Below are positions 1 through 10,490 of a DNA stretch of 10,490 nt, piece by piece; the stretch's first letter is position 1; every line of letters starts with the position of its first letter. Source of the DNA: Thermoplasmata archaeon (GTDB taxonomy: Archaea > Thermoplasmatota > Thermoplasmata > Thermoplasmatales > Thermoplasmataceae); assembly GCA_021810575.1 (NCBI GenBank), contig JAJZIN010000022.1, forward strand, positions 1 to 10,490, given 5' to 3'. A program made the position numbers and the translations under genes. Below the pieces are notes generated by a model. The model was given only the letters and a program-made list of their open reading frames with translations, made no database searches and was not told the origin of the DNA.

Positions 1-868
1 TTTCATATGCCTTCTCCATTGTAATTGCTGCCTTTTCACCTGATACCATGCCGGTATAGATTCCCCCACCGCTGAGTGGCTTTACTATACCTGCTGCGTC
101 CCCTATTAACAGTGCACCATTACCATATGGCTTTTTTAGAAAGCTTATGGGTATGGGACCACCTGTTATGGATATCTTATTTGGGTTGAGGTACCTCCTG
201 TACAGGTAATTGAATTTTTCCCTTGTCAGGCCAAAACCAGCCGTTCCAATGCGGGAAAAATCTCCTGCGGGAGTTCCCCAGGCAAAGTAACCGGTGCTGT
301 ATTGTGCACCAATAAACACGTTTACATTGTCCTGATCTTCCATCCTGCCAGCTCCATCGATCTGGTATGCAGAGACTACCCTCCTGAATCTCTGATCGGG
401 AAAAAGTACCTTTCTTGTTATACTGTTTGCCCCATCTGCTCCTACAACTGCGAGAGATTCTAGTTCCTCGATGTTTCCATCCCTCCTCAGGGTGATCCTC
501 ATCTTTCCATTTTCCCTCTTTATGTCTTTAACTCTTGAATTAAGCATCAGCTCGGCACCATTCCCTATGGACATGGCTGCAGCATCCTGATCAAAACGAT
601 CCCTCTCCAGTACTATTGTTTCCTCCTCCTTTCCGATTCTAATGTGGTTACCATCTGGAAAATATATGTTTGCTCCATGAACCCTGTTCACTACCGAGTC
701 CGTTTTTACCATTGACGTTACTCTTTTTGATACAAGGCCGGTGCATTCAACTGGTTTCCCTATGGACTGGTGCTCTTCGAGCTGTGCGACCCTGAAACCT
801 TTTTTTGCCAGATGTTGCGTACAGTAGGACCCACTGGGGCCTCCACCAACTACAACAAAGTCAAACAA
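1..868 (-). CDS. Geranylgeranyl-reductase-family FAD-dependent oxidoreductase (partial, C-terminus outside window)
   Basis: Family role: FAD enzymes of the geranylgeranyl reductase group (FixC-like) reduce isoprenoid double bonds, in archaea typically those of the geranylgeranyl chains of membrane lipids, at the membrane surface. Seen: 289 codons on the minus strand, open to the left edge. There is an N-terminal Rossmann dinucleotide motif VVVGGGPSGS (about residues 5-14), an ECTG stretch near 41-44, and a second FAD motif LLIGDAAG (GDAAG at 256-260) followed by PLSGGG. The family is usually near 390 residues, so roughly 100 are missing. Start: the frame has no ATG before the Rossmann motif. 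The TTG at 868-866 is preceded, with 5 bases between, by GGAGGG (879-874), which lies within the end of polB. Odd: the usual YxWxFP substrate motif reads GYFAWGTP. It is cotranscribed behind polB. The family is secure; the substrate is not, because Thermoplasmatales carry several paralogues. Confidence 0.88.
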   Translation of the reverse strand, partial: MFDFVVVGGGPSGSYCTQHLAKKGFRVAQLEEHQSIGKPVECTGLVSKRVTSMVKTDSVVNRVHGANIYFPDGNHIRIGKEEETIVLERDRFDQDAAAMSIGNGAELMLNSRVKDIKRENGKMRITLRRDGNIEELESLAVVGADGANSITRKVLFPDQRFRRVVSAYQIDGAGRMEDQDNVNVFIGAQYSTGYFAWGTPAGDFSRIGTAGFGLTREKFNYLYRRYLNPNKISITGGPIPISFLKKPYGNGALLIGDAAGIVKPLSGGGIYTGMVSGEKAAITMEKAYE

Positions 869-869
869 A

Positions 870-3248
870 CTATCCCTCCATGAAACTATCAAGTGTAGTG
901 TTCTTGCTGTTACGGACTGCCTGGGTTTTTTTCCCTGACCTAGATGCCTGTTCAACGAGATGTATTGGCTCGTCGAGACTCTCAAACACCCGGTTTACGG
1001 TTTCTTCAACTCTTTTTGCGTAATAAAGCCAGTCCGGTTCATCCTCAAATTTCTCTCCATCAATATATGGCTCTACTTCCTGCGGTGTCACCCTGCTATT
1101 CGTGACTATCCATGATACCTTCATTCCTGGAATGAATCTCTCACCTCTTTCTTGTAACTTTCTTGCAGCCCTTACGTTTGCCATGGAATCAGCGTTTGCA
1201 TAGGAGGCAGAATCTTTTACCGATCTAGAAATAACAAGTTTAGAAATATCGATGGTACTGTCTCCACGGATGAGCCTTTCTATAATGTCAACCGCATTTT
1301 CTCTCGCTCCTGATACGTCTTTGTTCATCAGCGAATCGAATACAGATTGTAGCAATTCACTCTGCATATCAAAGGAATCAGTTCTCCTTACCTCGTATCC
1401 CCTCACAAGCATTTCTCCAGCACTATCCATTGGATAGACTATCTTTCCCACATATCTTTTCTTTGCTCCATGGGAGAAGAATGGGTCCATGATCTTCTCA
1501 AACTCTATAAGAATGTGAAGATCATCAGAAATTTCCCTGCTCAGATCATTTCCCATCTTAATTGCTTCACTGAGTTCTTTTTTTCCTGATTCAATGAATA
1601 CGCTATCAGTATCACCGTATATCACTTTCAGGTCCTTCTTCTTCAGCTTATCTATGAGGCCCATGATCGTGTTTCTTGCGAACGACGTGACGGAACTTCC
1701 AAGCTCAGGATTTGTGAATCTGTAGAATGATGAAGCGAGTACACCATAAAAAGTGTTCATAAGTATTTTTATTGCGTTCTGTACACCATCCAGGTAATCC
1801 CTTTCATCGCCCTTAGCCTGCTTCATCAGCTTTTTGACCTGATCTCTCCTGTCCATCAGCGTCTGCAGCAATTCTGGAATCAACCCTTTCCTTACAGACG
1901 GATCCAGAAATCTTGCGCCTGTATGTGAAATTATGGTTCCATTTTCACTGAGTGTTGTGAAACATATATTGTATTTCATAATTATGGACGGATACATGCT
2001 CTTGAAGTCAAGCACTATTACCATGTCATATAATCCTGCACCAATGGATTCCACATGCCCGCCTTCTATGGCCCTGTCCTTCAGCGCCTGACTTGCAGTC
2101 ATTGGAACTGCTATATTCCTCTGTGTTGCCAGCCTTATGAGCAGGGAATCTACATAATTGCTTGTCCCCCCATTTGTTGTATCCTCCAGTGGAAGTTTTG
2201 TTACAGTGGACATGAACATATTTCTATCCACGACCCGCATTTTTTCCATGATTCTCAGTGTCAGATCAGCATCCTTAATGCAGTAATCAATCACCTCCTT
2301 CGGCCTGTTTCTATATTCTTCCATGATGTTGAGCCTGTCAACGTCATCCTTTCCTTCATTCAGGAGCTCCATTGCGACGTAATTAAGTGTTTCATGTTTT
2401 GGTTTCAAGATCTTCTTCACATTCCACCAAACATCGCTGATTATCCTTCCCTTGACCCTCCAGAACTGGCCATTGATCCTCCTTGCCTTTGTCCCATCCC
2501 TTCCTATATCGAGTGTGAGGCCGTATCGTTCCATCCTGTATTCAATTACAGGTAGATCGTAACCATCAATGTTGTATCCTATGATGATATCCGGATCTTT
2601 TTCCAGTACAAGCTTATTAAAATTTGAGAGAATCTCCTTCTCTTCCCCAGTAATGGCACCTTTCTCTGGATCTACCCCTTTCCTGCTTCTTATGGAATAT
2701 CCTATTACTATGATCTTGCCGAATGTATCTCCTTCATCGGGAGGGAATGCATTTTCTATATCAAAACTGAGCACCCTTACATCAGGTGTGAAATCGTCCG
2801 TTGTCTTTATGCTCTTGATATCAGATCTTAATACCATGTCAGTATGATATCTATTCCTGTCAAGGACCTCCTCACCTTCAACCTCAACACATGCACCAAG
2901 ATCAAGATCATATATGAATCTGTGATGAAATGGTATATCTGCAGCCATTACCGGTGAAACAAACAGGGAACGTAATTCCGGCACTTTATATGGATGATTG
3001 ACATAAATTCTTATTGCTTTCCTTGTCTCCCCCTTGACCCATAATTCAAGTTCCTCCATTCTCTTAAATTCAGGATTTTTCTTGATTCCTTCTATTTCCT
3101 GCTCTTTTGGTTCTATAACGTCAAAATATGGATCAAAACCGCCACACAGGACCGTTACTGATGAGCCGTCAGCTGTCCTCCCAAAAATCTCCACAACCGT
3201 ATCTGAAGTCCTGTATGAGGATGAAATTATTCTAAGGCTTATTTTCAT
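870..3248 (-). CDS. polB: Family B replicative DNA polymerase with 3'-5' exonuclease
   Basis: Template-directed DNA synthesis with proofreading in chromosome replication or repair. The 792-residue frame carries every expected motif. Exonuclease: Exo I D163-I-E165, Exo II N226...Y230-D231, Exo III Y322-x3-D326. Polymerase: motif A D414-FKSMYPSII, motif B K494...N498-TFYG, motif C Y544-GDTDS549, and KKRY at 596-599. All catalytic carboxylates are present, so an active polymerase and exonuclease are expected. Length is normal for archaeal PolB, and there is no intein at motifs A, B or C, where inteins often sit. The tail NTTLDSFM (783-790) resembles a PCNA-interacting peptide (QxxLxxFF) with two substitutions. 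Start: the ATG at 3248 has no Shine-Dalgarno sequence, but a TATA-like element lies about 25 bases upstream, as expected for a leaderless transcript. The reductase gene follows after one base. The 'B' family is certain; the paralogue type (B1, B3) is not resolved by eye. Confidence 0.97.
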   Translation of the reverse strand: MKISLRIISSSYRTSDTVVEIFGRTADGSSVTVLCGGFDPYFDVIEPKEQEIEGIKKNPEFKRMEELELWVKGETRKAIRIYVNHPYKVPELRSLFVSPVMAADIPFHHRFIYDLDLGACVEVEGEEVLDRNRYHTDMVLRSDIKSIKTTDDFTPDVRVLSFDIENAFPPDEGDTFGKIIVIGYSIRSRKGVDPEKGAITGEEKEILSNFNKLVLEKDPDIIIGYNIDGYDLPVIEYRMERYGLTLDIGRDGTKARRINGQFWRVKGRIISDVWWNVKKILKPKHETLNYVAMELLNEGKDDVDRLNIMEEYRNRPKEVIDYCIKDADLTLRIMEKMRVVDRNMFMSTVTKLPLEDTTNGGTSNYVDSLLIRLATQRNIAVPMTASQALKDRAIEGGHVESIGAGLYDMVIVLDFKSMYPSIIMKYNICFTTLSENGTIISHTGARFLDPSVRKGLIPELLQTLMDRRDQVKKLMKQAKGDERDYLDGVQNAIKILMNTFYGVLASSFYRFTNPELGSSVTSFARNTIMGLIDKLKKKDLKVIYGDTDSVFIESGKKELSEAIKMGNDLSREISDDLHILIEFEKIMDPFFSHGAKKRYVGKIVYPMDSAGEMLVRGYEVRRTDSFDMQSELLQSVFDSLMNKDVSGARENAVDIIERLIRGDSTIDISKLVISRSVKDSASYANADSMANVRAARKLQERGERFIPGMKVSWIVTNSRVTPQEVEPYIDGEKFEDEPDWLYYAKRVEETVNRVFESLDEPIHLVEQASRSGKKTQAVRNSKNTTLDSFMEG
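874..879 (-). promoter_or_regulatory. Ribosome binding site for the TTG-started reductase gene, inside the polB 3' end
   Basis: GGAGGG on the minus strand, 5 bases before the TTG at 868. These bases are also part of the last two polB codons, just before its TAG stop. The strong match and good spacing decide the TTG start and suggest that ribosomes finishing polB restart on the reductase gene. Confidence 0.7.
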
Positions 3249-3269
3249 CTGTTAAATATGCATATCCGG

Positions 3270-3280
3270 CTTAAAACAAT
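3270..3280 (-). promoter_or_regulatory. Putative TATA box of the polB transcript
   Basis: On the minus strand ATTGTTTTAAG is centred about 25 bases before the polB ATG. That is the distance expected between box A and the first base of a leaderless archaeal mRNA, and no Shine-Dalgarno sequence precedes the ATG. The match to consensus is only moderate. Confidence 0.35.
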
Positions 3281-3378
3281 ATCCATTATTTCAGATTGTG
3301 AACTTTATGGGATGAAAGAAATCTTATCCTTCCTTATTCCATGAACAAATTCCAGGATTGACATGTACTGAGATTCCA

Positions 3379-3387
3379 TTATAAAAA
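3379..3387 (+). promoter_or_regulatory. Putative TATA box for the riboswitch-transporter transcript
   Basis: TTATAAAAA would place the transcription start near 3405-3410, about 10-15 bases before the first paired base of the TPP aptamer at 3420. A second A+T-rich candidate, TTTAATAA at 3396-3403, would start transcription within the aptamer's P1 strand and is less suitable. The rest of the polB-riboswitch gap (3281-3378) shows nothing I recognise. Confidence 0.45.
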
Positions 3388-3419
3388 CAAAACGCTTTAA
3401 TAATTTGAGAAAATTTACT

Positions 3420-3505
3420 CATGTTCAGGGGAGCCATTGGCTGAGAGGATCAGAAGATCGACCCTTTGAACCTGACCCGGGTAATTCCGGCGGAGGGAGA
3501 AAATG
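3420..3505 (+). promoter_or_regulatory. TPP riboswitch (THI element)
   Basis: Thiamine-pyrophosphate-binding aptamer (Rfam TPP class) controlling the gene downstream. Nearly all conserved THI blocks are seen in order: GGGGAGCC (3428-3435), GGCTGAGA (3439-3446), GACCC (3460-3464), GAACCTGA (3468-3475), GGGTAAT followed by TCCGGCG (3479-3492), and GGAGGGA (3492-3498). Helices: P1 CAT-g-TTC (3420-3426) with GAA-a-ATG (3499-3505), with one G-A mismatch; P2 GGG(G) with CCC (3462-3464); P3 GCC/GGC; an optional small hairpin GATC-AGAA-GATC (3448-3459); P4 CCT (3471-3473) with AGG (3494-3496); P5 CCGG/CCGG (3477-3490). No intrinsic terminator follows. GGAGGGA forms part of P4 and an ATG is the 3' strand of P1, so control of translation initiation is more likely than attenuation. 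TPP riboswitches ahead of MFS genes are, from memory, described in Thermoplasma. Confidence 0.95.
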
Positions 3506-3580
3506 GATATAATATACGGCATCGTAAAAAGGAGTTTGTTTGTTACAGTTCTAGTTTGTGGAGGTTTTCTGTATGAATAA
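3503..3580 (+). CDS. Small upstream ORF (25 codons) starting inside the TPP riboswitch; putative leader peptide
   Basis: Seen: the ATG at 3503 is the 3' strand of riboswitch helix P1. It is preceded, 4 bases away, by GGAGGGA (3492-3498), a good Shine-Dalgarno sequence that is also the conserved P4/junction segment of the aptamer. The frame encodes a hydrophobic 25-residue peptide beginning MDIIYGIVKRS and ending VCGGFLYE. Its TAA stop (3578-3580) lies just after the transporter ATG (3573), an 8-base overlap in a different frame. Inferred: when TPP is bound, both the Shine-Dalgarno sequence and the AUG are base-paired and the frame is off. When TPP is scarce, ribosomes translate it, stop beside the transporter start and may reinitiate there. 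It could instead be a chance frame, or a relic of an ancestor in which the aptamer directly abutted the gene. Translation is unproven. Confidence 0.45.
   Translation: MDIIYGIVKRSLFVTVLVCGGFLYE
3560..3565 (+). promoter_or_regulatory. Ribosome binding site of the transporter gene
   Basis: GGAGGT, 7 bases before ATG 3573. It decides the start: the in-frame GTG at 3558 would place this site inside the coding sequence and has none of its own. A weak flanking pairing, TACAG (3544-3548) with CTGTA (3569-3573), would put the site in a loop and half-cover the AUG; its stability looks marginal. Confidence 0.7.
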
Positions 3581-4802
3581 ATACAGATCATCCCTCCTTG
3601 CCTCAACGTCCTTTGCATTTATTTTCTGGGGGATAGTTGGTACAATAGGACCGCTTGCTGCATCCGGATCAATAATCGGAAATCTAAATCACACGGGAAA
3701 GCTCATATTTCTCTTGATAGGGCCACTGGTTGTACCAGCAGGCAATCTTTCCATGGGATTTCTTGCTGATGCTATAGGCAGAAAGAAGGTTTTTCTAATA
3801 ACAATGTCATTTTATACCATTGGAATTATTGTTATAAGTCTGAGCTACACCTTCATTCCCTTGCTGCTCGGCCTAATACTTGCGGAATTTGGAGTTGGTG
3901 GTGAAGAACCATCCTCGCTTTCACTGGTGGCGGAAAATACAGATGCAGATAAGAGGCCATTCTGGTTGACGATCCTTACCAATATGGACAATATCGGCAG
4001 CGCCCTAATGGCTGGACTATTTTTCATAGTGGTTAATGATCTGCAGGACAGGGCTGTTCTCCTGATAGGTTCCCTGTTACTGATTTTGTTTATAGTTGCA
4101 CTCAGGAGAGTGATCCCGGAATCCCAGATGTGGCTGAAAGAATCTGGTAATACTGATGAATACAGAAAGGAGAGGGAGAAAATAGAATTGAGGGATGATG
4201 GTGAAAGGATTTCCCAGCCAAGCCTTCTTCCATCCTTCGTTTTTCTTGGCGTAATAGCTGTATCTCAGTATCTCACATTCGGCCTAATGGCTTACGTTCT
4301 TGCCCCCATAGAATTTCCAAATAGCTCTGAAGATGATCTGATCATTTTTGTAGCACTGCTGGGTTCTTCTGTGGCAGGTTTCATTGCGGCTCCACTTATT
4401 TCAAGGGGAAGAAAGAACTATACACTACTATCTTTCCTGTTTGGCACAGTTACAATGGTTGCAATATTCATAATGGTCCCATACTTGCAGAACATGGTTA
4501 TATTTCTTCCACTACTTTTTGCAAACATGTTCATGAGTGAATTTGCCTATGCTTCAAGATCCGTTCTTGAACCTGAACTTTATGGCACAAGAAACAGATC
4601 AGCACTTATAGGATTAACAAGGTTATGGCCCATGATAGCTTACCCAATATTCACCTTTTACACAAGCAGCCTGAATCTTTATAACTTTTTGCTCATCAAT
4701 GTGATACTCTGGGCACTTGGATTGTCTGCGTCCGTTTACTGGTTCTATTTTGGAATTGAGACAAAAAATGCAAACATAGATTATATGCCCAGAACCACCT
4801 GA
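3573..4802 (+). CDS. MFS transporter under TPP riboswitch control; predicted thiamine or precursor importer
   Basis: Secondary transporter of the major facilitator superfamily in the cytoplasmic membrane, 409 residues with about 12 hydrophobic segments. Family marks: the loop 2-3 signature G62-FLADAIGRKK; IPESQMWL (181-188), a relative of the sugar-porter PESPRWL motif after helix 6; then a charged cytoplasmic loop (about 189-215) joining the two halves. GVGGEEPSS (about 107-115) followed by AENTDADKRPFW resembles the helix 4-5 region of metabolite-proton symporters. The substrate is inferred from control, not sequence: the gene is the only one behind the TPP riboswitch, so thiamine, its pyrimidine or thiazole moiety, or a phosphate ester is likely. 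From memory, MFS genes behind THI elements in Thermoplasma were predicted as thiamine transporters (ThiT1/ThiT2); this is not the ECF-type ThiT of bacteria. Start: ATG 3573, chosen over GTG 3558 because GGAGGT precedes it. It is probably monocistronic. Confidence 0.88.
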   Translation: MNKYRSSLLASTSFAFIFWGIVGTIGPLAASGSIIGNLNHTGKLIFLLIGPLVVPAGNLSMGFLADAIGRKKVFLITMSFYTIGIIVISLSYTFIPLLLGLILAEFGVGGEEPSSLSLVAENTDADKRPFWLTILTNMDNIGSALMAGLFFIVVNDLQDRAVLLIGSLLLILFIVALRRVIPESQMWLKESGNTDEYRKEREKIELRDDGERISQPSLLPSFVFLGVIAVSQYLTFGLMAYVLAPIEFPNSSEDDLIIFVALLGSSVAGFIAAPLISRGRKNYTLLSFLFGTVTMVAIFIMVPYLQNMVIFLPLLFANMFMSEFAYASRSVLEPELYGTRNRSALIGLTRLWPMIAYPIFTFYTSSLNLYNFLLINVILWALGLSASVYWFYFGIETKNANIDYMPRTT

Positions 4803-4836
4803 TCTTATCTTTCCTTTGAAATCAAATATCATGAAG

Positions 4837-4861
4837 GAAATTTATACTTTTTAAATATTTC
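4837..4861 (+). terminator. Possible U-rich terminator after the transporter gene
   Basis: About 35 bases after the transporter stop. GAAATTTA and TAAATATTTC can form a weak, bulged, A+T-only hairpin around a TTTTT run (4848-4852). Archaeal termination often needs only a U-run. The same A+T-rich stretch could instead hold promoter elements for the next operon. Confidence 0.3.
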
Positions 4862-4888
4862 ATATTTAATTAGTGAAAACAATCCAAA

Positions 4889-4898
4889 TTTTATAATA
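4889..4898 (+). promoter_or_regulatory. Putative TATA box of the SHMT-like/CBS/tldDE operon
   Basis: TTTTATAATA, centred about 37 bases before the ATG at 4930. Transcription would start near 4915-4920, giving a very short leader at or around the Shine-Dalgarno sequence GGGGAG (4919-4924, 5-base spacer). A second candidate is TTTAAATAT near 4850-4858, which would give a leader of about 50 bases. Confidence 0.4.
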
Positions 4899-4929
4899 AC
4901 CGCTTGCTAATTACCATAGGGGAGAATTA

Positions 4930-6099
4930 ATGGCATCGATCGTAGAAATGGTGGACAATTATGGGAGGTACAGGAGGGATGTCCTGAATCTTCAGGCATC
5001 AGAGAATTTTCTCTGCTCTCACGTGAAGATGGCATTGGGAACTGATCTCGGTGGAAGATATTCCCACGTTATGCCGGATGGCAGAAATGCCTATGGCGGA
5101 ACAGAGATGATAGAGAACATTTTCAATGAAACAGAGAAAAACATCAAAACACTATATGGTTCCAAGTTTGCTGAAATAAGGCCGTTGGGTGGTCATATTG
5201 CAGCAGAGATCAGTTTACTGAGCACAATTCAAAAGAACGACACAATAATGGCAATAAGTGAGGAGTTTGGTGGATACACGGGATACATGGAAAACTATCT
5301 TCCAGCCATGCTTGGCTTCAAAACAGAATTCATCCCTTACAGTGAGGAAAAACAGGAAATTGATTACGATTCGTTCGAAAAGAAGGCTATGGAGATTAAA
5401 CCGAAGGCAGTTGTTCTTGGCCAGTCGTTCTTTGTAAAGCATTATGATCTTGCAAGAATAAGGGAAATATGCGATAAAGCGGGATCAAAACTTCTTTATG
5501 ATGGTTCCCACGTCATGGGACTGATTGCTGGAAAGAAATTCCAGCCGGACGCACTGAAATATTCAGACATTTTATTCGGTTCAACGCACAAGACATTCTT
5601 CGGTCCTCAAGGTGGGATAGTACTTACCAACAATGAGGAACTGGCAGGAAAGATCGGTGAAAACGTTGTGTGGAAAACAATGGATAACTATCACCCGAAC
5701 AGGATTGCAGGCCTTGGTATTGCTGCCCAGGACCTTATAACATTCGGAGAAAGTTATGCAGGATGGATTGTTTCAAACACCTATACTCTTGCCAGAACAC
5801 TCAATGATTCAGGCATAGCCATAAAATATGCTCCGTGGTATTCTGAAAGTCACCAGATAATTCTCTCTAAGGATAATTTCCAGAAATATGGTGATTTCAG
5901 AACAATAAGCAAAAACCTTGAGAATAACAGAATAATAGCGGATACGGAAGGAAGGCTAGGTACGGCTGAAATAACAAGAATGGGACTTACAGATATGGTT
6001 ACACTTGGAGAGATAGTCGCCGATGCCATAAAGGGAAAGGACATGAGAAGCAGGATCACTGAGGTCCTGAGAAATTCCAGCATAAAATTTTGCAGGTGA
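4930..6099 (+). CDS. Divergent serine hydroxymethyltransferase-like PLP enzyme
   Basis: Fold type I PLP enzyme of the SHMT (GlyA) family; authentic SHMT interconverts serine and glycine with a folate-type C1 carrier. Seen in 389 residues (SHMT is usually about 410-430): LNLQASENF (19-27); a glycine-rich GGRYSHVMPDGRNAYGG (41-57) in place of the YAEGYPGxRYYGG block; D191-GSH194 (the DxxH pair holding the PLP ring); STHK221 with the Schiff-base lysine; GRLGTAEITRMG (341-352), matching the R(I/V)GTPxxTxRG block that binds substrate carboxylate. Odd: compared by eye with E. coli GlyA, Glu57 is His46, the PLP-stacking His126 is Tyr116, Arg235 in HKTxxGPRGG is Gln227, and the SGSQAN block reads LGGHIA. 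PLP chemistry should survive; the C1-transfer function is doubtful, and aldolase, alpha-methylserine-type or non-folate C1 chemistry are possible. First gene of its operon; Shine-Dalgarno GGGGAG 5 bases upstream. Confidence 0.85.
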   Translation: MASIVEMVDNYGRYRRDVLNLQASENFLCSHVKMALGTDLGGRYSHVMPDGRNAYGGTEMIENIFNETEKNIKTLYGSKFAEIRPLGGHIAAEISLLSTIQKNDTIMAISEEFGGYTGYMENYLPAMLGFKTEFIPYSEEKQEIDYDSFEKKAMEIKPKAVVLGQSFFVKHYDLARIREICDKAGSKLLYDGSHVMGLIAGKKFQPDALKYSDILFGSTHKTFFGPQGGIVLTNNEELAGKIGENVVWKTMDNYHPNRIAGLGIAAQDLITFGESYAGWIVSNTYTLARTLNDSGIAIKYAPWYSESHQIILSKDNFQKYGDFRTISKNLENNRIIADTEGRLGTAEITRMGLTDMVTLGEIVADAIKGKDMRSRITEVLRNSSIKFCR

Positions 6100-6103
6100 A
6101 ATT

Positions 6104-7204
6104 ATGAAAACAGTTGAAGATATAATGACAAAGAACCCATTGACAATTGATGAGGAAACAACAGTATCTCTTGCACTGAACAGGATGAGAGATAACAAGA
6201 TTGCCCAGCTTCCAGTGGAGTCTGGAAAAAAATACCTGGGAATGATCAGCTACAGGGATATACTTAGGAGAAGGAGCATTCATCTTAATTCAAAGATAAA
6301 GAATTTCGTTGTGAAATCACCAGAACTTACAAGAAGAGATACTCTTGAAAAAGTGGTAAATCTACTCAGAGACAGTGCAATGGGAGCACTTCCCGTGGTG
6401 GAAAATGGGAAGATTGCAGGGGTAGTTTCCAGGACAGACATAATAAAGAACATCGAAGAATTTGATGAGCTGAAGGGTGTCCAGACATTTGATCTGATGC
6501 AAGATGCCTATTTCGCAAAGCCCGATGAGGATCTGGAATCAATCATGGAAAAGGTCAGGGCGCATGATGTGGACACAATCAATGTGGCAGATGAGAAGAC
6601 AAACCTTCTTGGCCTCATCAGAATTGAAAATGTACTGGATTATGAGATGAAAACGAAGGAAAGGGTCAGGAAGGGAGACTTCACGGGAGAAAGGAATCAC
6701 CCGGAAATAGATATTAAATCCCTTATGGAGCAACCAGTATTCTGTTATGAGGATGATGATCTTTTCACCGCATCTGAGGAGCTCGTAAAAAACCATCTTC
6801 ACAATATAGCAATCTGCGATAAGGGAAAGAGGATAGTGGGCATACTGAGTGTTGACGACATAATTAGTTCACTATGGTCAAAGGAGAGCACGGAAGGCAT
6901 GCTGGTAAATATCTCAGGACTCGGAGTGGGAGATACAGATCTGTACTCTACAATATATTCCATGGTTGAAAAATTCACGGACAGATATTCTAAGCTGGAA
7001 AATCTAAAGAATGGGACCATGAATATCCACGTTGTGAAGCACCACAGTGAAGAAGGAAAGATAAAATATTCCATAAGGACAAGACTGATTGGCAGGAAAA
7101 TAAACATGACCGAAAGCTCCTCAGGCTGGAACTTTGGAAAGGTCCTCTCTGATATATTTGACGATTATGAATCGAGGACAAAGAGGGAGAAGGAGAAGAG
7201 CTGA
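6104..7204 (+). CDS. Four-CBS-domain protein with C-terminal alpha/beta domain, possible ribosome-associated factor
   Basis: 366 residues, no signal peptide or membrane segment, hence cytoplasmic. Four CBS motifs are seen: about 4-54 (VEDIMTKNPLTI ... LGMISYRDIL), 65-117 (ALPVVENGKIAGVVSRTDII), 126-180 (FDLMQDAYF ... LLGLIRIENVL) and 203-256 (IKSLMEQPVF ... IVGILSVDDII). That makes two Bateman modules; such pairs usually bind AMP, ATP or similar ligands and regulate an attached domain or partner. Residues about 265-360 form a further domain. MNIHVVKHHSEEGKIKYSIRTRLIG has strand character, and ESSSGWNFGKVLSDIFDDYESRTKREKEK is a charged helix. The pattern recalls the beta-alpha fold of ribosome hibernation (HPF/S30EA-like) proteins and, from memory, the CBS-domain ribosome-dimerisation factor reported in Pyrococcus. 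That link is inference. Shine-Dalgarno AGGTGA (6094-6099) overlaps the upstream stop, so coupling is likely. Confidence 0.85.
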   Translation: MKTVEDIMTKNPLTIDEETTVSLALNRMRDNKIAQLPVESGKKYLGMISYRDILRRRSIHLNSKIKNFVVKSPELTRRDTLEKVVNLLRDSAMGALPVVENGKIAGVVSRTDIIKNIEEFDELKGVQTFDLMQDAYFAKPDEDLESIMEKVRAHDVDTINVADEKTNLLGLIRIENVLDYEMKTKERVRKGDFTGERNHPEIDIKSLMEQPVFCYEDDDLFTASEELVKNHLHNIAICDKGKRIVGILSVDDIISSLWSKESTEGMLVNISGLGVGDTDLYSTIYSMVEKFTDRYSKLENLKNGTMNIHVVKHHSEEGKIKYSIRTRLIGRKINMTESSSGWNFGKVLSDIFDDYESRTKREKEKS

Positions 7205-7206
7205 AC

Positions 7207-8589
7207 ATGATTGAACTGATGGACAGAATTCTGGATAAACTGGAAAAAGGGGCGATGTATGGTGAAGTAAGATATATGTCGGGAGAGAGTACAGAGGCTT
7301 CCATGAGAAATTCAGAATTCCAGGGAGAAGGAACTTCATCAGGGGAAGGAATTGCAATAAGGGCAATGAATGAATCCATTGCCATGGGATTTATTTCATC
7401 ATTTGATTTTGACCGGATACAGGAAATTATAGACAGAGTTTTAAGGAACAGCCACAGGGGAGGCAGAAACAAGCTTGACATGTCTGGAGGAATCAGGGAC
7501 AAATGGGAAGCTCTTGGAAAACACAAGGTAGAAGATATCCAGAGTTCAGACAGGATGGAAATCATGAAAAATGCTGATGAAATGATGAAGGGCTATGATC
7601 TCTCAGTGAGAATGAATGCAATCTACCACAGGAAGATCAGGCAAATATACCAGAATACCTCAGGGAGCATGATAGAATCCAGCCTTTCGAGGATCGGTTA
7701 TTTCATGGTTGGCGGTTATAAGGATGGCAACTCCTTTGAAGAAATTTACAGGCAGTTCGGTACCACTGGAGGCATGGAAAACTTCAGGGAACTTGATGTA
7801 CAGAAGAAAATTGAGGATGCAGTAAAAAACCTGAAGGAGATTTCAAAGTCTCCATCAGCAAAACCAGGAAGGTATGATGTGGTAATCAGTCCGGAAATAG
7901 CAGGGATAGTTGCACATGAATCATGTGGACATCCAACTGAATGGGACAGGATATCTGGAAGAGAGGGGTCACTTGCTGGAGAATCTTTCCTTACTGGAAA
8001 GAAATATCCATTTAAAATAGGTTCTCCAGTTGTAAACGTGATCGATGATCCCACAATAAAGGGAAGCTACGGTTACTATAAATATGATGATGAGGGAATC
8101 AGGGCCAGGAAGAGATACCTGTACAGGGATGGGATGACAAATGAATTTATACACAGCAGGGAAAGTGCTGCAAACTATGGTGTTGAACCCAATGGAGGCG
8201 GCAGAGTTTCTGACTGGGACATGGAACCCCTGGCCAGAATGAGTACCACATATATAGAACCGGGTCAACATACCTTTGATGAGCTGGTTGAGGATATCAA
8301 GCATGGAATTTACATAAAAAGTTACACAGAATGGAATATTGATGATATAAGGTTCAATGAGAAGTATGTGGGGAGCGAGGCATTCATAATTGAAAATGGA
8401 AGGCTGAAAGGCAGGGTAAGGAAACCCGCTATAGAAACAAACACAGTTAATTTCTACTCCTCCATAGATGCTGTCTCGAAGGAACTTGAATTTGAAGCTG
8501 GAACATGCGGGAAAGGGGATCCAGAACAGGGTGTCGATACATGGATGGGGGGACCCAGTGTTAGATTGAGGAATATATACATATCCTGA
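7207..8589 (+). CDS. tldD: TldD metalloprotease subunit
   Basis: TldD/PmbA (TldE) family. In bacteria the TldD-TldE heterodimer degrades unfolded or modified peptides and matures microcin B17 and CcdA; the archaeal role is unsettled. In 460 residues the active site is intact: H237-E-S-C-G-H242 (HExxxH) supplies two zinc ligands and the general base, and the distal GTCGKGDPEQG supplies the expected third ligand, C434. The N-terminal half (1-215) shows the family's less conserved domain; GRYDVVISPEIAGIVAHES (221-239) is the typical entry to the catalytic half. Length is normal. The start ATG lies 2 bases after the CBS-gene stop; a weak GGAG (7192-7195) sits 11 bases upstream, so translation may depend on coupling. 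It is followed after 9 bases by the partner subunit. The protein is cytoplasmic, with no signal peptide. Confidence 0.95.
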   Translation: MIELMDRILDKLEKGAMYGEVRYMSGESTEASMRNSEFQGEGTSSGEGIAIRAMNESIAMGFISSFDFDRIQEIIDRVLRNSHRGGRNKLDMSGGIRDKWEALGKHKVEDIQSSDRMEIMKNADEMMKGYDLSVRMNAIYHRKIRQIYQNTSGSMIESSLSRIGYFMVGGYKDGNSFEEIYRQFGTTGGMENFRELDVQKKIEDAVKNLKEISKSPSAKPGRYDVVISPEIAGIVAHESCGHPTEWDRISGREGSLAGESFLTGKKYPFKIGSPVVNVIDDPTIKGSYGYYKYDDEGIRARKRYLYRDGMTNEFIHSRESAANYGVEPNGGGRVSDWDMEPLARMSTTYIEPGQHTFDELVEDIKHGIYIKSYTEWNIDDIRFNEKYVGSEAFIIENGRLKGRVRKPAIETNTVNFYSSIDAVSKELEFEAGTCGKGDPEQGVDTWMGGPSVRLRNIYIS

Positions 8590-8598
8590 GGTAAAATT

Positions 8599-9903
8599 AT
8601 GGCTGACTTAGATTTAATTAGAAGAAATGTAAAGAAACTGAACCTTGATTCCTACGCAATCAGGCTGATCAGGACAAACATAGAACAGATCAGGTTTTCT
8701 AACAATCTCGTGGATCTTAGAAATTACTGGACACGGGAAGGTATTTCTATATTCCTCAATTCAGGAAAGAAGATAACTGAGATAAGCCTGGATAATGATT
8801 CAAATATAGAAGAAAAAATAGAAAAGTCTTACAGGGCTATGTTAAAGGGTGAAGAATCCAGCACATTTAACGGTATAAACCCTGAAAAATACGCTTCGAT
8901 AGAGAGGATAGAAGATCAGGAAAAAACTGTAGAGCTAGATGATATAGTTAATGCATGTATAGAGGGTGCAAGGGATGGAGGTTCTGAAAGAAGCACGGGT
9001 CTTGCATACAGGACATATACCGATGATCATATCATAACACCCTTCAATGAGCATCACGTTACTTACGATGACTTCAACTTTGATATAAGGGCATTCAGGG
9101 GTCTTAGCACTGGACAGGAAGGCGTTCATTTCTCATCTACTGTAAAAGATCCCGTTGAAATCGCAAGAAATGCAGGACTGGAGGCGGGAAAAACAGCATC
9201 TCTCACGGTTCCGTCAAAGGAATTTGAGGCTGGAAACTTTGAAACACTTCTCTCTCCCTACGTTATAGGTAATATTTTTACATACTGTTCCTCACTATTT
9301 TCAGCTTATTCAGTACAGATGGGCATGAGCTACCTGGATGAGAGTCTGGGAAAGAAGGTTGCTTCTGAATCTCTGACACTTGTTGATTCTCCACTGAACA
9401 GGGAGGGCTCAAACTTCACTCTGTTTGATGATGAGGGGACACCATGCTTTAATAAAAATCTTATAAATCAGGGTGTCCTTGAAAATTTTGTACACTCATA
9501 TTCAACAGCAGTAACGTCAGGGACAAAAACTACTGGTAATGCAGGAATCATTAGTCCCGAACCTCTTCAGCTTTCAATGGAAAGTGGTAATAAGTCAGTT
9601 GAAGATCTTCTTCACTCAATAGACAGGGGGTTATATATAAAAAACGCGTGGTATACCCGTTTCCAGGATAACAGGAACGCAGTATTCTCAACCGTCCCGA
9701 GAGATGGGATTTTCATGGTTGAGAATGGAGAAATAACAGGGAAAATCGGTGGAGTTAGAATCAGCGATTCCTTTGGGAAAATAATCAAAAATATATCGGG
9801 TGTTTCTAGGGAACTTAAAAATGTGAAGTTCTGGGAAGAGGTTTCCCCCTCCATAATGGCCTCAGTGATAGTACAGGACCTTCATGTGACAAAGGCCTTT
9901 TAG
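8599..9903 (+). CDS. tldE: TldE (PmbA) partner subunit of the TldD protease
   Basis: 434-residue TldD/PmbA-family protein without any HExxxH motif, as usual for the non-catalytic partner that shapes the peptide channel of the TldD-TldE complex. Family marks: VHFSSTVKDPVEIARNAGLEAGKTASL (about 176-202), the central LLSPYVIGNIFTYCSSLFSAYSVQ (217-240) where TldD has its metal site, the Y301/T307-T311 loop TSGTKTTGNAGI, and the C-terminal block from FGKIIKNISGVSRE to PSIMASVIVQDLHVT (392-431). Both subunits are therefore encoded in one operon. Shine-Dalgarno GAGGT (8588-8592) overlaps the tldD stop, with 6 bases before ATG 8599. It is the last gene of the operon; the stop TAG at 9901-9903 is 6 bases from the stop of the convergent M1 peptidase gene. 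The subunit role is inferred from family and pairing. Confidence 0.93.
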   Translation: MADLDLIRRNVKKLNLDSYAIRLIRTNIEQIRFSNNLVDLRNYWTREGISIFLNSGKKITEISLDNDSNIEEKIEKSYRAMLKGEESSTFNGINPEKYASIERIEDQEKTVELDDIVNACIEGARDGGSERSTGLAYRTYTDDHIITPFNEHHVTYDDFNFDIRAFRGLSTGQEGVHFSSTVKDPVEIARNAGLEAGKTASLTVPSKEFEAGNFETLLSPYVIGNIFTYCSSLFSAYSVQMGMSYLDESLGKKVASESLTLVDSPLNREGSNFTLFDDEGTPCFNKNLINQGVLENFVHSYSTAVTSGTKTTGNAGIISPEPLQLSMESGNKSVEDLLHSIDRGLYIKNAWYTRFQDNRNAVFSTVPRDGIFMVENGEITGKIGGVRISDSFGKIIKNISGVSRELKNVKFWEEVSPSIMASVIVQDLHVTKAF

Positions 9904-9909
9904 ATCCCT

Positions 9910-10490
9910 TCACTCACCATTTACTTTTTTATATATATTCAGGTATTCCAGTCCTTTCCTCACGCCCTTTTCCCATGATGGCTCATTTTTTCCAGAAATG
10001 TACTCCTTTACAGCTTTTTCATCCTGCAGCCCGAGGTATGGAATCATTGATTCAAGGAATCTTGAAGTGTATCCTGTTCCTTCGAAGAACCTGTCCAGAG
10101 TAGAAACTATTTCTTCCATGTTATCAATGATAAACTGCCTGTTATGCGACTCTCCTGACGCAGCCATTATGGCCCTGAAAGAATCCTGCTTCTTAATTTT
10201 TCCGTCCCTGATCAGACCCCATACAGCTGAAAGATTTTCATCTCCCCTGAGGTGGCCCATTGCACTTATTATCTTGATTTTATCTTCATCTACCTTGAGT
10301 GTGTCAAGCTTTTTCAGGAGGCCACTGAGATCATTTCTTGCCATTGCATAGGCATATGCCACGGACTGCCTTTCATCCGGTGATACTTTCTCAAAATCAC
10401 TGAACCTGTTTGCAGTCTTCTTTGCATAGTCCAGATCAATCAGTGATAGAACTGATTGCATCCTTCCCCTGATTACTGTTATATTTATCG
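9910..10490 (-). CDS. M1-family aminopeptidase, C-terminal part only (tricorn-interacting-factor type); 5' end outside window
   Basis: About 193 codons are visible, and the frame is open to the right edge. An ATG at 10461 starts no gene of its own: nine in-frame sense codons precede it and the protein pattern runs through it. The sequence matches the alpha-helical ERAP1-like C-terminal domain of zinc aminopeptidases. In order it shows FEKVSPDERQSVAYAYA, EDKIKIISAMGHLRGDENL, DGKIKKQDSFRAIMAAS, RFFEGTGYTSRFLESMIPYLG, and the terminal WEKGVRKGLEYLNIYKKV, in place of the usual GL.KGLE.I ending. The zinc-binding HExxH-E site and the GAMEN exopeptidase motif would lie upstream and cannot be checked. 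In Thermoplasma such enzymes are the tricorn-interacting factors F2/F3, which trim peptides released by proteasome and tricorn to amino acids. Family confidence is high; the F2/F3 choice is open. Confidence 0.82.
   Translation of the reverse strand, partial: INITVIRGRMQSVLSLIDLDYAKKTANRFSDFEKVSPDERQSVAYAYAMARNDLSGLLKKLDTLKVDEDKIKIISAMGHLRGDENLSAVWGLIRDGKIKKQDSFRAIMAASGESHNRQFIIDNMEEIVSTLDRFFEGTGYTSRFLESMIPYLGLQDEKAVKEYISGKNEPSWEKGVRKGLEYLNIYKKVNGE
9919..9939 (+). terminator. Possible U-rich terminator of the tldDE operon
   Basis: Sixteen bases after the tldE stop, the plus strand has TTACTTTTTTATATATATT with a run of six T, a plausible archaeal U-run terminator. It lies inside the last codons of the convergent peptidase gene, where it encodes part of NIYKKVNG. 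No hairpin is needed or clearly seen. Confidence 0.35.

Follow-up and report, generated by a model that had tools for sequence, protein, structure and literature searches.

A TPP riboswitch of the Thermoplasmatales may gate a short translated leader that hands control on to a transporter gene

The TPP riboswitches of Escherichia coli thiM, thiC and thiB have expression platforms separate from the aptamer, and these genes start 53, 99 and 50 nt, respectively, from GCGNAGG. In the compact riboswitches of the SAM-II, SMK and preQ1 classes, the Shine-Dalgarno (SD) sequence lies inside the aptamer and is buried by ligand binding; we know of no relay open reading frame (ORF) in any of these classes. 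A 2002 survey of THI elements is said to include Thermoplasma, and it may already note the overlap with the SD sequence.

In Mycobacterium tuberculosis, the B12 riboswitch of ppe2 is combined with an upstream ORF, uPPE2, and the accessible part of the report ascribes translation of the downstream gene mainly to termination-reinitiation (PMC11260477). Termination-reinitiation has also been shown in an archaeon, Haloferax (PMC6728339); reinitiation is almost completely lost once the gap reaches about 20 nt (PMC10666635), and the most frequent overlaps between archaeal gene pairs measure 4 and 1 nt (PMC6728339, PMC10666635), as given in the accessible portions of the two papers. The kind of mechanism that we propose here is therefore already known, from Haloferax and from the ppe2 chain. 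Fungal TPP riboswitches also combine TPP with upstream ORFs, but they act by splicing and the ORFs are decoys, according to the sections available to us (PMC10043782). In a literature that was mainly open-access, we found no description of the mechanism of an archaeal TPP riboswitch or of a leader ORF behind one; nor did the open-access literature yield a relay that joins TPP, archaea, an SD sequence in the aptamer core and an interchangeable adapter.

The locus analyzed here lies in a stretch of 10,490 nt from a Thermoplasmata archaeon (assembly GCA_021810575.1, contig JAJZIN010000022.1, positions 1 to 10,490; hereafter the window). Its aptamer belongs to the same family, RF00059, as those of E. 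coli thiM, thiC and thiB, but no platform lies between the aptamer and the first start codon; from SAM-II, SMK and preQ1 riboswitches it differs in ligand and fold. We favor, with a probability of about 0.73, the reading that the element is a translational OFF switch whose effect would be relayed through a short leader ORF to a transporter gene by termination-reinitiation. It would thus be like ppe2, a translational OFF switch on a short leader whose stop overlaps the next start, whereas ppe2, in the accessible part of the report, responds to B12 in a bacterium, with the SD sequence in a downstream masking hairpin and not in the conserved core of the aptamer, and with none for the ppe2 gene itself (PMC11260477), and the window combines TPP, an archaeal host, an aptamer core that contains the SD sequence, a second SD sequence that is strong, and leaderless sister genes. 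The geometry is that of the archaeal coupled pairs as described in the portions of the papers available, and the 4- and 1-nt overlaps recur among our leader loci; those pairs are ordinary genes, however, whereas in the window a riboswitch starts the upstream member, which is a tiny and unconserved ORF, and the 8-nt overlap differs from the two most frequent ones.

The aptamer and the leader of the window

The element matches RF00059 at 3417-3515 of the forward strand with 70.9 bits, above the family's threshold (gathering score 54.3; E 9.7e-13, Rfam covariance model), and by this score it belongs to the TPP riboswitch family. The features are collected in Table 1. From the sequence alone, GGAGGGA at 3492-3498 had been taken both for the P4/junction segment and for a well-placed SD sequence of the ATG at 3503, and the Rfam alignment agrees, assigning GAGG 3493-3496 to the 3' strand of P4 and G3497-A3498 to the junction. 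The SD sequence thus lies inside the aptamer at a proper spacing to the start codon. The same sequence-only reading had equated the ATG with the 3' strand of P1; this strand, GAAAA 3499-3503 with one mismatch, contains only the A of the ATG, so that the core of the SD sequence belongs to the conserved aptamer and the start codon belongs to it only through its A. Over 89 clusters (window excluded), pairing between the 5' flank and the bases leading to the start codon was no better than in shuffled sequences (p 0.30), and a P1 over the start codon was dropped as a general rule.

Table 1 Features of the riboswitch operon, in window coordinates
Feature	Position	Strand	Basis or remark
TATA-like box TTTAATAA, likely promoter	3396..3403	+	sequence; about 25 nt before the 5' edge of the aptamer
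TPP aptamer	3417..3503	+	RF00059 match extends to 3515 with flanking consensus
GGAGG, SD sequence of the leader ORF, inside the aptamer	3492..3496	+	6-nt spacer before ATG
Leader ORF, 25 codons and TAA	3503..3580	+	sequence; 44 leader-type clusters
GGAGG, the transporter's own SD sequence, within the leader ORF	3560..3564	+	8-nt spacer to ATG 3573-3575
Predicted hairpin over transporter SD sequence and AUG	3560..3597	+	fold prediction, z -2.51
MFS transporter, 409 aa, regulated gene	3573..4802	+	Pfam MFS_1, E 2.7e-20

The 16S rRNA genes of Acidiplasma and Ferroplasma (L188, L189) end in ATCACCTCC, then ATG, as located by the Rfam 16S model, which yielded the tail in these two after a search by tail pattern had given no match in 6 genomes. 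GGAGG is complementary to this 3' end and is therefore a full SD sequence in those two genomes of the order.

The leader runs from ATG 3503-3505 through the peptide MDIIYGIVKRSLFVTVLVCGGFLYE to a TAA stop at 3578-3580, which overlaps the transporter ATG by 8 nt, and the GGAGG of the transporter falls inside it; the earlier description of a 25-codon frame that covers the transporter SD sequence and ends 8 nt into the transporter was thus borne out base for base. Two related leaders (L084 and L001) have the same start, the same 25-codon length and the same stop position, even though the window and L001 leaders are only 42% alike. If the TATA-like box before the aptamer is the promoter, as seems likely, the aptamer forms the 5' end of the mRNA and the transcript would begin just upstream of it. 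In 89 aligned upstream regions (the row of the window excluded), an A/T-rich box likewise precedes the GGGG of P2 by about 22-35 nt. The transporter, which putatively takes up thiamine or a precursor, has as its nearest named relative in a protein search an MFS transporter of Cuniculiplasma divulgatum (92% identity).

Three arrangements behind one aptamer

Twenty-eight aligned homologues of the transporter led to 58 loci in public genomes, of which 54 were scanned (L055-L058 were left out); a TPP aptamer at gathering score lies upstream in 42 of the 54, and that of L010 scores just below the cut-off. Among the 117 genomes of the order, 86 contain RF00059, and the sequences flanking these matches were collected for a survey. 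The strict pattern GGCG[GT]AGG gave 107 different sequences in 91 clusters at 90% identity, and a looser one, with another base in the aptamer, added 14 clusters and exposed a third architecture. The total of 105 clusters, mostly from one archaeal order, comprises 43 direct, 44 leader (the window among them), 15 conventional and 3 unassigned (L052, L060, L065). Those three, from Thermogymnomonas acidicola, look frame-shifted, with long G runs even within the aptamer, and their frame breaks are probably assembly errors; together with L096, a direct type with a TTG start, they were removed before the leader count.

In the direct type, an ATG (rarely GTG or TTG) 5-9 nt past GGCGGAGG is the start codon of the regulated gene, which encodes an MFS transporter or a binding protein. 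In the leader type, the start is spaced likewise but begins a short ORF in a different frame. The geometry between SD sequence and ATG is alike in both, most often +6 or +7. An ATG stands 3-10 nt past GGCGNAGG in 79 of the 91 strict-pattern clusters, as compared with a fraction of 0.25 in shuffled sequences, and with three further clusters the count is 82 of 105; an ATG at this distance from the aptamer GGAGG is thus more frequent than by chance.

The conventional type mostly carries GGCGAAGG and has no leader; its gene starts about 34-45 nt on, and the SD sequence of the gene is held in a predicted hairpin with the gene's own first codons, whose stem covaries (for example, GGUAGGA/UCCUAC and GGCAGGA/UCCUGC). 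The window has no such conventional TPP platform, which can be recognized by sequence in the 15 other clusters. These 15 of 105 clusters, using a separate SD hairpin and being neither direct nor leader, count against the relay. The third architecture was seen before binding-protein genes with an MNP/MDP N-terminus (L104, L108, L115, L119, L120, L130, L143, L146, L147, L149, L151, L158, L172, L173, L178, L179, L186, L196); L173 and L196 had been listed as leader type and were reassigned to it. For L103, a Pfam scan of a 60-residue piece gave no match, and the whole protein matches SBP_bac_1.

A sample of 389 genomes from the phylum yielded RF00059 in 102 of them. Forty loci outside the order, taken highest-scoring first with the lower-scoring ones left, comprise 24 direct (of which one is truncated at a contig end and another is masked in part), 14 leader, one conventional (L196) and one without a start (L209). 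Three loci of Nitrososphaerota (L035, L036, L045) are also of the leader type. In the thiB leader of E. coli K-12 (L236), a TTG past GCGAAGG opens a short frame ending shortly before the GTG of thiB, perhaps by chance.

The leader stop and the start of the gene

With the offset counted from the first base of the gene's start to the first base of the leader stop, the stop lies at -12 to +14 nt in 42 of the 44 leader clusters, against 12.7 expected when the spacer is shuffled while the SD sequence, start and coding sequence of the gene are kept. Thus, as in ppe2, the leader stop appears from the sequences to overlap or adjoin the next start in nearly all leader-type clusters. When one locus was taken per combination of leader length and offset, 25 of 27 meet against 6.7 expected, with a tail of 3e-16 that is nominal only, because the lineages are related and the clusters are not independent. 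For L008-L011 and L078 the gene start was chosen by hand, as was the leader start of L075; under a fully blind gene-start rule, 37 of the 44 still meet. The other two frames of each locus end near the gene start in 13 of 90 cases. The commonest offsets are +1 (eight clusters), -2 and +4 (six each) and +8 and +11 (five each), followed by +5 (three, window included), +13 (three), -10 and +14 (two each) and -3, +7, +20 and -22 (once each). The two exceptions are L012, with a broken leader of 6 codons and a stop at -22, and L009, with a late stop at +20; apart from L012, leaders have 12-57 codons. In most leader-type MFS proteins the first membrane segment follows the chosen start at a short and similar distance, in support of the starts chosen. 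In the Ferroplasma-like L008-L011, ACG stands where sister loci keep the transporter ATG, so that the true start there is unsure; three of these four loci retain the leader stop that follows, and a GTG 9 nt upstream may serve as start.

Outside the order, all 14 leader stops fall within -12 to +14 nt, and 12 of them form an exact 4-nt overlap, ATGA or GTGA, with the starts of L204 and L205 set by eye. The scripted score is 13 of 14 (L196 in, L204 out), but shuffles already give 10.2, so that the outside set adds reach and exactness, not significance.

These counts bear on the possibility that the leader ORF is incidental, GGAGGGA being mere aptamer consensus, with the transporter initiating on its GGAGG at 3560-3564 and some other pairing regulating it. 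Such a view would suit the strong SD sequence of the transporter, the unconserved peptides, a CCCUCC in the transporter that can pair with either SD sequence in the full-length fold, and L012, which has no good leader. It leaves the excess of stops at the gene start (42 of 44 against 12.7) without a cause, however, the stop tracks the gene start although the leader length varies several-fold, and the identical aptamer SD sequence precedes the gene itself in 43 clusters; we therefore regard an incidental leader as improbable.

The sequence-only reading had expected the start, the frame length and the stop overlap to be kept in relatives, with synonymous bias, and had named broken frames or freely shifting spacing as evidence against it. 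Start and overlap are indeed kept (82 of 105 for the ATG spacing, 42 of 44 for the stop), whereas length, frame and peptide drift; one leader of 44 is broken (L012) and one stops late (L009), and where the length shifts the stop stays. As for the bias, differences between 18 pairs of related leaders, which share loci, fall 141/120/125 on the three codon positions, and 45 codon changes are synonymous as compared with 213 non-synonymous. With neither a codon-position nor a synonymous bias, a functional leader peptide (attenuator or arrest peptide) was ruled out; the leader is thus a translated spacer whose peptide is not conserved. Selection appears to act on its openness and on its ending at the gene start, not on the peptide.

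On a tree of 74 MFS proteins, a quick one in which several long branches were flagged, the labels direct and leader change at least 6 times, 3 of these forced by well-supported branches, and the direct-type L015, L017 and L018 fall inside the Cuniculiplasma-like group of the window. Because the aptamer GGAGG starts the gene directly in many relatives, the leader can be seen as an interchangeable adapter. This interchange also speaks to the opposite direction of control, in which ribosomes on a decoy leader would block the overlapping transporter start and TPP would turn the transporter on. The overlap of stop and start makes such occlusion possible, and decoy ORFs are known downstream of fungal TPP riboswitches, in the accessible part of that report (PMC10043782). 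In the direct type, however, which controls the same transporter family and interchanges with the leader type on the tree, TPP can only shut the gene; besides, nothing about a decoy requires its stop to fall only a few nt from the start, and it makes little sense for a vitamin to switch on its own uptake gene. We consider a decoy very unlikely.

There is little more to be said for an internal promoter that would transcribe the transporter without the aptamer. A second TATA-like stretch, ATATAATATAC, lies downstream of the aptamer at 3508-3518 and at a workable distance, but L084, with a transporter of 92% identity, lacks it, as do L001 and L002, and the direct type has no room for such a box. 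Programmed frameshifting that joins leader and transporter into a single protein, a minor product in M. tuberculosis ppe2 according to the accessible part of the report (PMC11260477), is scarcely credible here, as the offsets (+1, +4, +5, +7, +8, +11, +13, +14, -2, -3, -10) span both wrong frames, no shared slippery site came to notice, short of a dedicated search, and the leader peptides are unconserved.

The proposed relay and the folding of the gene start

The comparison thus favors a riboswitch that would gate the leader and hand control on by termination-reinitiation, as had been suggested from the window alone, since both the aptamer-borne start and the meeting of stop and start are kept. 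The direct type leaves one obvious route of control, namely that TPP hides the SD sequence; the leader type has the SD geometry of the direct type, so TPP most likely stops translation of the leader, and because the transporter start meets the leader stop, the transporter would follow by reinitiation. With TPP bound, the 3' side of the aptamer, with GGAGG in P4 and the start codon behind it, should be folded away, as we infer from the known fold, and ribosome entry would be barred. When TPP is absent, GGAGG offers AUG 3503 a well-placed SD sequence, and ribosomes would read 25 codons of arbitrary sequence, melting the predicted hairpin on the transporter SD sequence and AUG. They would then terminate at the leader stop (3578-3580), step back 5 nt and reinitiate at AUG 3573, probably helped by GGAGG 3560-3564. 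Many relatives have no relay, the aptamer GGAGG starting the transporter or binding protein directly.

The hairpin of the window is predicted to have an outer stem that pairs GGAGG 3560-3564 with CCUCC 3593-3597 inside the transporter codons, and an inner stem, 3568-3574 with 3581-3587, that takes in the AU of the transporter AUG and leaves the leader stop in the loop. The earlier statement that no anti-SD helix exists therefore holds between aptamer and gene, but not for this predicted pairing within the gene. A like hairpin with one compensatory pair is predicted for L084 and a similar one for L002; it is absent from the predicted fold of L001. In an unconstrained fold of 3417-3600, the aptamer SD sequence pairs with UCCCUCC of the transporter and the aptamer is not formed. 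Over 45 loci, the predicted unpaired fraction is 0.280 against 0.323 in shuffled sequences for the SD sequence of the gene (p 0.04) and 0.380 against 0.422 for the start region (p 0.002). With this slight excess over shuffles and a mean z of -0.55 for the start-region folds, a strong general sequestration of the gene starts was rejected. The SD sequence of the gene is often strong, which makes independent initiation possible. Leader hairpins that hide the gene's SD sequence with z below -3 are predicted in L198, L201, L222, L021 and L122. In L198, L201 and L222, a 7-9 bp hairpin within the leader holds the SD sequence of the next gene directly before ATGA; in these fold models the three are clean candidates for a gate melted by translation.

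More broadly, we lean somewhat to the view that, across this whole archaeal phylum and in some Nitrososphaerota, the TPP aptamer doubles as its expression platform. One base of P4 being mostly G, giving a GGAGG core, a single fixed initiation site would serve different genes, in some cases directly and in others by way of a translated adapter that is unconserved and interchangeable and ends on the gene's start codon. If true, the adapter lets the aptamer stay fixed while the genes and their N-termini change, and the working of a hardly studied group of archaeal riboswitches would be explained. The loci offer a natural series of readouts from one aptamer, whether direct, by relay or by classical hairpin, and the leader is a candidate case of a short ORF kept for being translated and not for its product. 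Two bases, in the start or the stop of the 25-codon ORF, are predicted to make or break control.

The riboswitch operon is divergent from a family B DNA polymerase gene (870-3248, minus strand), with which it shares about 170 bases of upstream DNA. Further on in the window, two adjacent genes of the TldD/PmbA metallopeptidase type (7207-8589 and 8599-9903) adjoin a CBS-domain gene and an SHMT-like gene, an ordinary set.
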